Assembly (NCBI GenBank): GCA_017545245.1
Contig: JAFWPB010000022.1
Coordinates: 1-64,000, forward strand
Direction: 5' to 3'
Length of the DNA: 64,000 nt
Source: Clostridiales bacterium
GTDB taxonomy: Bacteria > Bacillota > Clostridia > Saccharofermentanales > Saccharofermentanaceae
The position numbers and the translations under genes are program-made. Below, one piece after another: positions 39,775-46,092 of this stretch (within the stretch, counting starts at the first letter, position 1; each line of letters begins with the position of its first letter). A model generated the notes under the pieces. The model worked only from the letters and a program-made list of their open reading frames with translations, made no database searches and was not told the origin of the DNA.

Positions 39775-39801
39775 GTGTCGACAAGGAAAAGAAGGTGTGT
39801 T

Positions 39802-40872
39802 ATGAAAAATTCAAATCGTTTATTATCAGGATTATTGGGGCTCCTTGTTCTTTCCGGTTGCAGTTCGGAAACGACAAAGAGTAAAGCAACAAGATGGACT
39901 TCGGAAGATACTTCGACGAAGACAGAAACAACAAAAGAGACGGAGCCGGAAGAAACAACAACTTCCGAAGAAACCACTACAACAGTTCCAGAAACTTCCG
40001 CATCGGAGTCTTCTGAAGAGACGACAACAGAAACAGAAGAAACGACGGAACCCATACAGGTGACGATTCCGGATCTTACGGAAAAAGGACTGGCCAGTAA
40101 GAGTGCCTATGAGAGCTTCCTGAAGGATGAAATCAAGGTGGATATCAGTCCTCTGGATGACAAGGCGACTTCCATCAATGCAGCAATAATCGGGACCGAT
40201 GTGCGAAATCAAGAGATGACTTGTACAGATCTCGTTTCTTATTTCAAAGAAAAAGCATCGGCAGACGAAGCAGATCAAACTGATGTGGCTTATGGATACC
40301 TGGATTGCGGCCTCGATGGCGATCCGGAACTAGTAGTCAGGATCCGTGGGCTTGGACCTTATGAGGAACAGTTGCTTTTCAAGTATGAAAATGAAAAGGT
40401 CGTTCTTAAGGACGCCTATGAATCATGGGATAGAAGCCAGACTTTGCTTAATGTGGCCGGAGGATTACAATCCAGTGGTTCAGGCGGAGCTGCGATGCAC
40501 ATATTCTTTATGGGATATCTGGATAATACGGCGACACTGAACAAGCTCTGTGAAGTAGTCGAGCAGTATGACTCCTATGCTTCTCTGGATCCCAAACTGG
40601 AAGTGATGGATATGTATGTCAAACAGAATGGATTGACGTCCAATTGCGTGATCATGCAGATCGCAAGACCCAATCACGAGTATGAGTATACATATGCGAT
40701 CTTGAATGAGGATGCCGATCCTTCAATCTATACCAGCGGCAAGATGCATGAAGTGTTTACGAATACGAAACTTCCATATCAGGCCTATCCTGATTTTGAA
40801 AAGCAGTTGAAAGAATGGGAAGAGCAATCGTTCTCAACTGCACCTGAGATCGAATGGATTGAGAGGAGCTGA
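39802..40872 (+). CDS. Lipoprotein with Thr/Glu-rich linker, function unknown
   Basis: A 356-residue protein. The signal LLSGLLGLLVLSGC is a clear lipobox (Cys about 20). Residues ~22-85 are Thr/Glu/Ser low-complexity, like a wall-spanning linker, then a globular domain of ~260 residues that includes VAYGYLDCGLDGDPELVVRI, a motif like the repeat-type VDLDGDGxxEL seen in surface proteins, and two later Cys. RBS GAAGGTG. The stop lies only seven bases from the convergent luxC stop, with no terminator between. No known family. Confidence 0.82.
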   Translation: MKNSNRLLSGLLGLLVLSGCSSETTKSKATRWTSEDTSTKTETTKETEPEETTTSEETTTTVPETSASESSEETTTETEETTEPIQVTIPDLTEKGLASKSAYESFLKDEIKVDISPLDDKATSINAAIIGTDVRNQEMTCTDLVSYFKEKASADEADQTDVAYGYLDCGLDGDPELVVRIRGLGPYEEQLLFKYENEKVVLKDAYESWDRSQTLLNVAGGLQSSGSGGAAMHIFFMGYLDNTATLNKLCEVVEQYDSYASLDPKLEVMDMYVKQNGLTSNCVIMQIARPNHEYEYTYAILNEDADPSIYTSGKMHEVFTNTKLPYQAYPDFEKQLKEWEEQSFSTAPEIEWIERS

Positions 40873-40879
40873 AAAGGAC

Positions 40880-42154
40880 TTAGTTCTCAATGTTTATGAA
40901 ACGACTGTAACGTGCGAGTGCAAACTCGCCGTCATGCGCTTCTCCTTCAAAAAGACTCGACATGTGTCCGGCACGTGTGACGCGCTGGACACCGCAACGG
41001 GTCAATTGAAGGGTGAGCGCATCTCTTTTTTCAGGACTGCAGATCAGGCCTGCTGTCTGAAGATATCCTTTGCTTTTCCGGAGTACATCGGCCAGGTTCT
41101 TAGCGGGGAGAGGTTTCACGATTACGTTTCCGTACATGTATGACAATTCCAGGTCCGGATCTTTTTTGACCGTAACGCTTGTATGCTGGCCCTGAAAACG
41201 GGATCTCTTATCTTCCGATGCTTCGTCGCCGTGAAGATGTTTTTCGATCCTTTCCTCATACCGTCTGAGTGTAAGCTCCGCTACACCACCGATCTCCCGG
41301 ATCGGGTGCTTTTCGAATGCGCGTTCCAGATAGGGGAGAAATCTTCCGGCAAATGACAACGCCTCGTCATATTTGTCTGTATCGATATAAATGACCTGGC
41401 AGGAACTGCACAGCAACTGGCGGGTCATCAGGATGTGTTCCGCAAGTTCGGTAAGTTCTGTCTCTTCGTTTTCATATCCGGAGATATAGGCAAATCCAAG
41501 TTTGTGACCCCATTCGATCAGCCTTGTTCCCGGTTTGGCAAAAGCTCTTACTGCGTGCACGACTTCGTCGCCACCCCAAATGGCGATGCCGTCAGAAAGA
41601 TCGGCCAGCTTTTTCATAGCTGCGATATCTGAGGAAGGCGTATCAAAGACATAGATGAAGTCCTTCAACGCCGGTTCGGCATCGACAAGCATCTTGAGTG
41701 CCTGGATCGTAAGGCCGCGGTCGACACTTGGAAGTTTAAGAATGTTAATGTTTCCGGCAAGAAGACCTTCTCCGATACTGGCGATCGGAAGCACGTCCAT
41801 ATTACCCGCAGCAATATGGAAAATTACACCAAGCGGAACTTCCTGCGTCTGGATCTTTTCGTTGTCGTTTCTTACACCGTGAAACTCGATCTCGGTTTTC
41901 TTCTGGAGATAATCACGGCTCATCATGCGGACGATCTGATCCATGTAGAGAGAAGCAGAATCCGGATCTACAGACTGAAGAAGTGATTCAAATTCACCGG
42001 CGGCCAGCCGCTGGCTGATATTGTCAAAAGCCCGTATTACATTTTCACGGTCGAGCGTCTGGTGAAGGAGAGTGTCTGTCAGTTTCGAAGGCAGTTCGTC
42101 AAGAAGACGGTTCTGCTCTTTTGTCTCGAAAAGAGTTCCGTTGAAAAGGATCAT
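40880..42154 (-). CDS. luxC: LuxC-type acyl-CoA/acyl-protein reductase
   Basis: A 424-residue protein of the aldehyde dehydrogenase-like LuxC family, which reduces an activated fatty acyl group to an aldehyde with NADPH. Visible: VPLGVIFHIAAGNMDVLPIASI (nucleotide site), GGDEVVHAVRAFAKPGTRLIEWGHKLGFAYIS, and QLLCSSCQVIY, whose Cys pair (about 250) supplies the acyl-thioester nucleophile. The start overlaps the luxE stop (ATGA), so the products are made together. In luminous bacteria LuxC and LuxE make luciferase aldehyde; no luxA/B occurs here. Substrate unknown. Confidence 0.9.
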   Translation of the reverse strand: MILFNGTLFETKEQNRLLDELPSKLTDTLLHQTLDRENVIRAFDNISQRLAAGEFESLLQSVDPDSASLYMDQIVRMMSRDYLQKKTEIEFHGVRNDNEKIQTQEVPLGVIFHIAAGNMDVLPIASIGEGLLAGNINILKLPSVDRGLTIQALKMLVDAEPALKDFIYVFDTPSSDIAAMKKLADLSDGIAIWGGDEVVHAVRAFAKPGTRLIEWGHKLGFAYISGYENEETELTELAEHILMTRQLLCSSCQVIYIDTDKYDEALSFAGRFLPYLERAFEKHPIREIGGVAELTLRRYEERIEKHLHGDEASEDKRSRFQGQHTSVTVKKDPDLELSYMYGNVIVKPLPAKNLADVLRKSKGYLQTAGLICSPEKRDALTLQLTRCGVQRVTRAGHMSSLFEGEAHDGEFALARYSRFINIEN

Positions 42155-43275
42155 TTCAGGCCTCCTTTATCCAGATATTCTGCTGCACCTGCCGCACAGG
42201 TCTTGATGTCTTTCAGACCGACACGGCCAAGGATCTCGAGGTACGGGGAATTCTGTCCACAGGGGCATGTGCTGCCGTCATGCAGTATCCCAAGATCGTC
42301 TGTCATGACGCTTGTTAACGGTGTACCTTTTACAAGCGGCGTCAGTAGATTCACAAGACCCGGCGTGCCATTGGGGACAGGTTCCAGAGTATTGACGTCC
42401 CGGATCAGGACACGGCCATAAACGGGAACATGGAAATGGTGGTGCGGGCAGTCGCAATAGAGGATCGGATGTTCAACCGCACCGAAAAACTCGACGATGT
42501 TATCATCTGTGATTCCAAGCACGCGCTTGGCCAGATCATAGAAGACGCTCTTTTCCACTTCCTCGGCATAGAACTGTTTCCAGCCGCCGGCGAGCATGAT
42601 CTTGGATCCCTTGGGAAGCTGTACAAATGCTTTTCGATCTTCCATCATCTGCATGACAAAAGTCGTATAGGAAGGAAATCCCATGAAGCGGACAGGTGTC
42701 TTCTTTTTCGCATATTTTTCAATAGCCTTGATCACGCCTTCCAGATCCGGTTCGTATTTTCCATCGTGGTATTTCAAAGCATAGGTACGATGCCGGGCCG
42801 GTGCCAGAAGTGTCGTTATAAAGGCGGTCTTGGTAACACCTGTTTTGTTGTGGCGGTTTGGTTTGTATCCGAAAACTATATAGTTGCATGGACGAAGAGA
42901 AATCAGATGACGCTTGCTTACTACCCGCAGCGACATCTTCAGTGCATACCAAAGCTCGCTCCATGCAAATCCCATGCGGCTGAAATGACCGCTTGTTCCG
43001 GACGAAGTGACCTTGATCGAAAGACGCCGGTTCGGAAGAGAATAGATGTGGTGCTTTTTGAAGAAAAGCGTGGGCAGGAAAGGAAGCTTTGCAAGATCAG
43101 AAAAAGAGGCGAGGTCTTCCGGAGAAAAACCCTCGCCATCTAATACTTTTCTGTATTCTTCACAATGCGCATAATGGAACGCACAGTTTTCTTTCATAGC
43201 ACGCAAAAATAACTCGTTTGTCGGTTCGAGATTATAGATCTTCTTTTGTGAGAAAAGCTTGCTTCGAAAACTCAT
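42151..43275 (-). CDS. luxE: LuxE-type acyl-protein synthetase
   Basis: A 374-residue adenylating enzyme. It activates a fatty acid as acyl-AMP and holds it as a thioester for LuxC. Marks: FSDLAKLPFLPTLFFKKHHIYS, the ATP-binding TSSGTSGHFSRMG (about 94), NYIVFGYKPNRHNKTG, and a C-terminal Cys (360, in KTCAAGAA) in the position where LuxE proteins are acylated. Start ATG 43275 lies 23 bases behind the leuS stop, so it belongs to the leuS transcript. The combination luxE-luxC without luciferase implies a different use of the aldehyde. Confidence 0.9.
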   Translation of the reverse strand: MSFRSKLFSQKKIYNLEPTNELFLRAMKENCAFHYAHCEEYRKVLDGEGFSPEDLASFSDLAKLPFLPTLFFKKHHIYSLPNRRLSIKVTSSGTSGHFSRMGFAWSELWYALKMSLRVVSKRHLISLRPCNYIVFGYKPNRHNKTGVTKTAFITTLLAPARHRTYALKYHDGKYEPDLEGVIKAIEKYAKKKTPVRFMGFPSYTTFVMQMMEDRKAFVQLPKGSKIMLAGGWKQFYAEEVEKSVFYDLAKRVLGITDDNIVEFFGAVEHPILYCDCPHHHFHVPVYGRVLIRDVNTLEPVPNGTPGLVNLLTPLVKGTPLTSVMTDDLGILHDGSTCPCGQNSPYLEILGRVGLKDIKTCAAGAAEYLDKGGLK

Positions 43276-43298
43276 GCTTCCTCCATCCGGCGTTGACT

Positions 43299-45773
43299 TT
43301 ATTTTGCTACGATGTTTGCCAATCTTCCTTTTACGTAAATGAACTTCACGATATTTCTGCCAGCCAGTGCCGGTTCGAGGTGGCTGTCTTCATGGACGAG
43401 TTTCTCGACTTCTTCAGAAGTAGCATCCGGGCTGATGTTGAGCTTGAACTTCACCTGACCATTGATCTGGACAGCGATCTCGATCGTATCTTTTACGAGC
43501 TTGCTCTCATCGCATACCGGCCAGGGCTGATTGAAGATAGAGTATTCATTGCCCATTCTCTCCCAGAGCTCTTCCGTAAAGTGCGGAGCATAAGGAGCAT
43601 ACAGGAGCAGGAAAGTCTCTACCGTCGATCTCAGAAGTGCATCGTTCTTGTTCGAAGCGCCCTGGTATTTACCGATAGCATTCAAAAGCTCCATCAGACG
43701 TGCGATCGAAGTATTAAACTGGAACTTTTCCGTATCTGTTGTGACGGCCTTGATCGTGTAGTTCAGGCTGTAAAGAAGAGCCTTGTCTTCTTCGCTGAGG
43801 TCTGTCGGAAGAGCCTGATCCTTCGCGATGTCTTTTACCTCTTCTACCAGACGGTCGATACGTCCGGTGAACTTAACGATCGCCTGAAGTCCGCTTTCGC
43901 TCCATGGACCACCATCGGTGTATGCAAAACCAAATGCAAGGTATGTTCTGAATACGTCAGAACCATACTTCTGGATGTACGGATCCGGTGCAACGGTGTT
44001 GCCTCTGGACTTACTCATTCTGTTTCCGTCAGGTCCGAGGATGATACCCTGGTGAACGAGGGAAGTAAACGGCTCGTCGAAATCGAGGTAACCCATGTCA
44101 CGGAGTGCCTTACAGAAGAAGCGCGTGTACAGGAGATGCATTGCCGCATGCTCTGGACCACCGACGTACTTATCAACCGGGCACATCTTATCGATGAGCT
44201 CTCTGTTGAAAGGCTCCTTATCGTTCTTGTTATCCGGGTAACGCAGCTGATACCAGGAAGAGTCAACGAATGTATCCATGGTATCCGGATCACGCTTGGC
44301 CGGTGCGCCACACTTCGGACAGGTTGTGTTCATGAACTCCGCGCACTTGGCAAGAGGAGATTCTCCATCCGGACGGAACTCTACGTCGTAAGGGAGCAGT
44401 ACCGGGAGCTGGTCATCCGGAACCGGAACGACGCCGCACTTTTCACAGTGTACGACCGGGATCGGTGTACCCCAGTAACGCTGACGGGAGATCAGCCAGT
44501 CACGGAGACGGTAGTTGATCTTTCTCTCTGCCATGCCCTGTGGAGCAAGCTTTTCAATAATTGCATCGATAGCGGTCTTGAAATTCAAACCGTCAAATTC
44601 GCCGCTGTTGACCAGAACGCCTTTTTCGATGAACGGGAGTTCATCCTCAGCGTCAGGAGCAGAAGCAATAACTCTCTGGATCGGCAGATCGAACTTCTTT
44701 GCGAATTCATAGTCTCTTTCATCGTGAGCCGGAACCGCCATAACCACGCCGGTACCATATGTTGCGATAACATAGTCGGAAGCCCAGATCGGAACCTTCT
44801 TTCCGGTGATCGGGTGGATCGCATAGGAACCTGTGAATACACCGGTCTTTTCACGTGTGGTGGACATTCTGTCGATATCGGAAGCTTTCTTGGTGAAAGC
44901 CTGGTATTCTTCAACTTTTTCTCTGCACTCGTCTGTGGTGAGCAGTGTGCACAGCGGGGATTCCGGTGCTACAACTACGTAGGAAACACCCATCAGGGTA
45001 TCGGCACGTGTTGTAAATACAGAGAGTTTCAGATCATCGCCGTTTTCGTCTTTCAGGCGCTCACCGTTTTTCTCGCAGAGGAAGGAGATCTGTGTACCTT
45101 CGGAACGGCCGATCCAGTTGGTCTGGATCTTCTTTGTCTTTTCCGGCCAGTCAAGCTGCGGCAGGCAGTCAAGAAGTTCCTGGGCATAGGCAGTGATCTT
45201 GAAGAACCACTGTGTCATGTTCTTGTGTTCTACTTCGGTGTGGCAACGCTCACATGCACCATCGATAACCTGCTCGTTGGCAAGTACCGTGTTACACTGC
45301 GGGCACCAGTTGACCGGAGCATTCTTTCTATAAGCCAGGCCCTTTTCGAGGAGTCTCAGGAAGATCCACTGGTTCCACTTATAATATTCCGGTTTGCAGG
45401 TTGCGATCTCGTAATCCCAGTCATAGGTCGCGCCCATGTTCTTAAGCTGCTGTTCCATGATCTCAATGTTATGCAGTGTGGAATCCTTCGGGTGGATACC
45501 GGTCTTGATGGCGTAGTTTTCTGCCGGAAGACCGAACGAGTCGAAACCCATCGGATGGAATACGTTAAAGCCCTGCATACGCTTCATACGGGACCAGGAG
45601 TCTGTCAGAGAGTAGTTGTACCAGTGACCAAGATGTAGGTTAGCTGCGGAAGGGTAGGAGAACATCTCCAAAACGTATAGTTTCTCACCCTTTTTATCCG
45701 GGTCAAACTTATAAAGTTTGGTTTCCTCCCATTTTTTCTGCCACTTACGGTCAATGTCTGTTGAATACGCCAT
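43299..45773 (-). CDS. leuS: Leucyl-tRNA synthetase
   Basis: A class I aminoacyl-tRNA synthetase of 824 residues. HIGH motif as [12 protein letters not shown], zinc site CPQCNTVL...CERCH, the CP1 editing insert with [12 protein letters not shown], the second Cys4 knuckle CEKCG...CPKCGAP, and KMSKS as RMSKSRGN, followed by the tRNA-binding C-terminal region. I start at 45773 because AGAGAGGT is seven bases ahead; an ATG at 45779 is too close to it. TGCTATAAT lies upstream on its strand; no T-box could be found. luxE and luxC follow. Confidence 0.96.
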
Positions 45774-46092
45774 ATGCATACCTCTCTTTATATAGAAACT
45801 TACAAACAGTCATTATAGCAGATTTTGTCACTATAGTCTCTTGTTTTGTAGTTCTTGCCAAACTTAGTGGGTTCTTTTGAAGCGTCCTTAAGATGATGCA
45901 ACTTGTTTTCATGCTGGAAAGAAAATAGAATTATCGATACTTTTTTCAGCATCGGCCTATTACCCGTTATAGTGTCACGAACAATAAATAAACAGTCTTA
46001 TTCGGATTCAGAAACACTTGATATGTCTTTGCCTTTTCTATATAGTCGACTTAAAGTATTAGGCTTTTAGGCCGTAAGGGAGGTGTTTGGAA
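45774..46092. promoter_or_regulatory. Divergent intergenic region leuS / zinc-ribbon gene
   Basis: This gap of 319 bases carries the leuS extended -10 on the minus strand (TGCTATAAT, reading 45820 to 45812) and, for the plus-strand gene, TTGATA (46018-46023), 17 bases, TATAGT (46041-46046). Between them I see no ORF, hairpin with U-run, or T-box element. Confidence 0.55.

Follow-up and report, generated by a model that had tools for sequence, protein, structure and literature searches.

The luxE-luxC pair of the window (the whole 64,000-nucleotide stretch of Clostridiales DNA analysed here) belongs to a well-separated LuxE/LuxC clade, hereafter called family A. By analogy with characterized systems, we consider it probable (about 0.72) that the two proteins of the family A pair together reduce a carboxylic acid to the aldehyde at the expense of ATP and NAD(P)H, whatever the acid. 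The aldehyde is very probably made for a purpose unrelated to light, since the pair is kept intact, always paired and apparently moved as a unit, in a host that does not glow. LuxC and LuxE have so far been met chiefly in light emission and, at the sequence level, in flagellin-glycan islands. Family A would be a third, stand-alone lineage, under selection and apparently traded among gut anaerobes. The domains, the conservation of catalytic residues, the folds, the pairing and the selection reported below were computed here.

The initial annotation described a luxE-luxC pair behind leuS whose genes overlap by ATGA; both open reading frames and the overlap are indeed present on the minus strand, 23 nt past leuS (Table 1). 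A strong ribosome-binding site precedes each gene. The Pfam scores of both proteins pass the curated cut-offs (24.9 bits for LuxE, PF04443; 21 bits for LuxC, PF05893). The equivalog cut-offs of the luminous proteins are missed, with 46.3 of 750 bits for LuxC and 84.6 of 550 bits for LuxE (NCBIfam NF052251 and NF052244). In the promoter and terminator scan the number of matches was not above that of shuffled sequence.

Table 1. Features of the luxE-luxC unit and of its junction with leuS (window coordinates; residue numbers for protein motifs)
Feature	Position	Strand	Description and basis
luxE-like acyl-protein synthetase	42151..43275	-	374 aa; Pfam LuxE 139.5 bits, E=1.8e-40
luxE motifs	residues 90-96; 230-233; 360		ATP loop TSSGTSG; GGWK; acyl-accepting Cys360 (KTCAAG); residue alignment
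luxE Cys/His motif	C276, H279, H282, C337, C339		residue alignment
luxC-like acyl-protein reductase	40880..42154	-	424 aa; aldehyde-dehydrogenase fold; Pfam LuxC 179.7 bits, E=1.1e-52
luxC catalytic Cys	residue 249		Cys249 in CSSCQ; residue alignment
ATGA overlap, luxE stop/luxC start	42151..42154	-	translational coupling; AAAGGAGG before it; sequence
leuS-luxE junction	43276..43298	-	23 nt; GGAGGA ribosome-binding site of luxE; without terminator-like hairpin
leuS, leucyl-tRNA synthetase	43299..45779	-	neighbour through insertion, outside the luxE-luxC unit

The catalytic residues were followed in an alignment of 140 homologous pairs. The LuxC motif reads CSSCQ in 139 pairs and CNSCQ in the remaining one. 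The C-terminal Cys of LuxE is found in all 140, within KTCAAG, VTCAAG, QTCAAG or RTCAAG. For the ATP loop 137 rows are listed, and every variant among them retains SSGT as its core. The key residues, which had been said to look intact in the window, are thus conserved across the family as well. Profiles built from the window proteins cover the LuxC-LuxE complex of P. phosphoreum (PDB 7xc6) almost end to end, with the catalytic Cys of both aligned (LuxC against 7xc6_A, E=1.1e-19; LuxE against 7xc6_E, E=4.4e-35, versus 9.8e-8 against PaaK). AlphaFold2 models of the two proteins are fairly confident (mean pLDDT 83-84). With Foldseek, the top match of the LuxC model is 7xc6_A, at 17% identity over the structural alignment, followed by aldehyde dehydrogenases. 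The nearest folds of the LuxE model are PaaK-type ligases, and 7xc6_E lies outside its top 50 structural matches.

The acyl-accepting Cys and the GGWK motif are found in all LuxE homologues aligned and are both missing from the genome's own PaaK-like ligase, so that by its anatomy the window LuxE is a LuxE-type acyl-protein synthetase rather than a CoA ligase. As in the luminous homologues, LuxE would adenylate a free carboxylic acid with ATP to give an acyl-AMP, and the acyl group would pass to Cys360 near its C-terminus. Fourteen residues remain after this Cys, and the model has low confidence around it (354-363), which is consistent with a flexible swinging arm without proving one. The acyl group would then be transferred to Cys249 of LuxC, where NAD(P)H-dependent reduction of the thioester would free the aldehyde. 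The likeliest substrate would be a free fatty acid, possibly supplied by the acyl-ACP thioesterase present in the genome (PF01643, E=1.6e-20). Subsequent conversion of the aldehyde to an alcohol, or its entry into a lipid, is a guess. Several observations count against the acid-reductase reading: the scores far below the luminous cut-offs, the long branch of family A, the PaaK-like fold of LuxE (many PaaK-type ligases act on aromatic acids), and the fact that no neighbour gene points to a pathway.

The same two-step chemistry might have a non-fatty substrate (an aromatic acid, a plant phenolic, a short branched acid or an amino acid) and serve detoxification or signalling in gut or rumen anaerobes. 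This alternative, which we regard as possible but doubtful, contests the fatty substrate and leaves the reaction type as it is. An aromatic substrate is to be taken seriously because both the fold of LuxE and its Cys/His motif (C276, H279, H282 and CxCG at 337-340) resemble those of aryl-acid ligases; these residues are largely common to PaaK and partly missing in the luminous LuxE of 7xc6. They are also found, however, in the LuxE group of the glycan islands, and the window LuxE is by sequence nearer to LuxE than to PaaK, as the E-values given above indicate. The origin of most carriers of the pair, which are gut or rumen metagenome-assembled genomes (MAGs) judging by their titles, fits a non-fatty acid, as does a stand-alone mobile cassette, which would suit a self-sufficient, selectable trait. 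Either way, the acid-reductase pair with intact catalytic residues, in a genome without luciferase, is supported as far as the sequence goes.

Absence of luciferase was looked for in the whole assembly (3.15 Mb, completeness 95%). No match to Bac_luciferase (PF00296) was obtained, while 10 of 14 control genomes gave matches. The claim that luxA/B are lacking therefore extends from the window to the assembly. For LuxD, also reported as absent, no match to PF02273 was found in the assembly, but the control genomes were silent as well, which makes this absence weaker than that of luciferase. Elsewhere in the genome a truncated second LuxC is present (contig 23, 2557-3102), consisting of the C-terminal part only and about 40% identical to the window LuxC. 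No LuxE match was found within the 12 kb examined around it, and it is likely a remnant of another copy of the luxE-luxC pair. This fragment is what could suggest that the window pair itself is a decaying lux operon. Such an origin is refuted by the conservation of the pair: the window genes are intact and under purifying selection, the catalytic residues are kept in 140 loci and the genome has no luciferase, so that we give this origin practically no credit. A PADLOC search for anti-phage defence gave no match.

The two genes behave as a unit. The order luxE then luxC, on one strand, holds at each of the 140 loci, and the 4-nt overlap is found in 119 of them. Pairwise distances of LuxE and LuxC are strongly correlated (r = 0.87, a value reached by none of 500 permutations), common ancestry adding to the correlation. 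Between close relatives dN/dS is about 0.02-0.07, that is, purifying selection. It had been proposed to look for a third conserved neighbour. Clustering of the neighbours around the roughly 140 pairs brought out none beyond genus-level synteny: neighbours recur only inside a genus, through shared synteny, as CorA, a methyltransferase and an ABC ATPase do in one of them. In nine genomes of a sister genus (loci L052, L053, L054, L056, L058, L059, L064, L065 and L075) luxC is immediately followed by a gene for a putative membrane protein of about 150 aa that bears a conserved HEYGH motif, in some cases with a 4-nt overlap; the one tested had no Pfam match.

Using the family profile, a close match to family A was found in 68 of the 115 genomes of the window's bacterial family, mostly as a single copy, and in none of the 73 other genomes of the order at the same level. 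In a phylum-wide sample of 399 genomes the only close match was the window's own genome. Among 84,980 species genomes scanned, 341 relatives came up. The best 80 of these are nearly all MAGs of Clostridia; a few Mollicutes are among them, as are isolates, for example Eisenbergiella tayi DSM 26961. No family A gene was found in viral contigs. Distant matches occur in 39 plasmid records; of the ones included in the tree, a Chloroflexota plasmid alone is close to family A, and it bears the same isolated luxE-luxC pair. Our search found no literature on LuxE/LuxC in Clostridia.

The initial annotation mentioned a plasmalogen-type lipid as one possible product, and supply of aldehyde for ether lipids or plasmalogens is a conceivable role, as a fatty aldehyde or alcohol would be a reasonable precursor and the pair is present in Anaeroplasma and in many Clostridia. 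Against it, PF09989, a rough marker of PlsA, is found in 105 of the 115 genomes of the family, including that of the window, regardless of the pair. Moreover, bacterial plasmalogens are made by PlsA/PlsR from diacyl lipids (PMC9702350). A marker that is nearly universal with or without the pair, together with this diacyl origin, weakens the proposal, and we consider such a role unlikely.

The position behind leuS is a local feature. It is shared by three close relatives only (the window genome, G094 and G100). The site is empty in at least nine congeners (G093, G095, G096, G097, G101, G102, G105, G107 and G111): there the GGDEF-EAL gene known from the window, convergent with leuS, comes after it without the pair between them. 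In many congeners a hairpin and a T-run, judged by eye, directly follow leuS; they are missing in the window. Since the hairpin is absent and the gap is only 23 nt, read-through from leuS into luxE-luxC is plausible in the window. Family A as a whole cannot be expressed in this way, so that of the earlier suggestion of expression from leuS only the part concerning the window stands. In the window, a gene at 39775-40872 (+), between luxC and the GGDEF-EAL gene, encodes a putative lipoprotein of 365 aa, which contains a stretch rich in Thr, Glu and Ser and has no Pfam match; it is not present there in G100.

In the concatenated LuxE and LuxC tree, the window's genus appears in four separate places, three of which recur in the LuxE tree. 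This scattering suggests that the pair was gained horizontally several times, or else that diverged copies were lost, and on these phylogenetic grounds the pair probably travels between genomes as a two-gene cassette. One may go further and picture a self-sufficient, horizontally traded carboxylate reductase that releases one particular aromatic or fatty aldehyde or alcohol, which acts on competitors, on the host or on the membrane. LuxE-LuxC chemistry would then have a non-luminous physiology without partner genes, so far undescribed; we put this forward tentatively, at less than even odds. A stand-alone lineage such as family A would in itself imply an aldehyde-forming chemistry in gut and rumen, which is absent from the literature searched. 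With only two genes, the substrate could be found by a single in vitro screen, and biotechnology would also gain a compact carboxylic acid reductase made of two proteins.

Family A forms a separate clade with 100/100 support, on a long branch; the deeper branching order is unsure owing to the long branches of 7xc6 and of a Priestia sequence. Plasmid p5_CACC119 of Priestia megaterium (L212) carries a LuxE without annotated LuxC; genes for a fatty acyl-AMP ligase, a carrier protein, a cysteine desulfurase and a scaffold protein lie in the same cluster, which may encode a pathway to a sulfur-containing lipid or peptide. A second LuxE/LuxC group, group B, occurs in the same bacterial family as the window. 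Group B clusters contain genes for an AMP-ligase, an SDR and a thiamine enzyme (transketolase-like halves), and possibly join an aldehyde to a sugar-like carbon chain. At five of these loci (L037, L039, L040, L041 and L042), where LuxE and LuxC are partly fused (about 785 aa), the neighbours are a thiamine-diphosphate enzyme, an SDR and an AMP-ligase. A related, annotated cluster on a Rhizobium plasmid contains two transketolase halves, a glycosyltransferase and an AMP-binding protein. Both sets resemble published flagellin glycosylation islands, in which LuxE/LuxC genes are known (PMC4875605, PMC7874193). These likenesses could suggest that the window pair also takes part in surface-glycan or flagellin-glycan synthesis. 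We find this very improbable: the pair lies outside the group B clade and has no sugar, AMP-ligase, SDR or transketolase neighbours, such neighbours are missing from the family A loci examined, and A and B co-occur in some genomes.

The family A pair can thus be set against three known systems. With the luminous LuxC-LuxE(-LuxD) system (PDB 7xc6) it shares the two domains, the ATP loop, GGWK, the C-terminal acyl-accepting Cys of LuxE and the catalytic Cys of LuxC. It differs by the low identity of LuxC (17%), by scores far under the equivalog cut-offs and by the lack of luxA/B and of a luxD match; the window LuxE has the CxCG Cys/His residues, the window LuxC has an extra Cys (Cys252), and the pair stands alone. 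The glycan-island LuxE/LuxC of Enterobacteriaceae and Aeromonas, together with group B, are alike in the adjacency of the two genes and in the catalytic residues of LuxE, whereas they lie inside sugar clusters (AMP-ligase, SDR, transketolase-like), are sometimes fused and occupy a separate branch of the tree. The PaaK-type aryl-acid CoA ligases have in common with the window LuxE the fold of the large domain, the ATP loop and the CxCG motif; the window LuxE is shorter (374 versus about 440 aa) and, unlike PaaK, ends in a segment bearing an acyl-accepting Cys.
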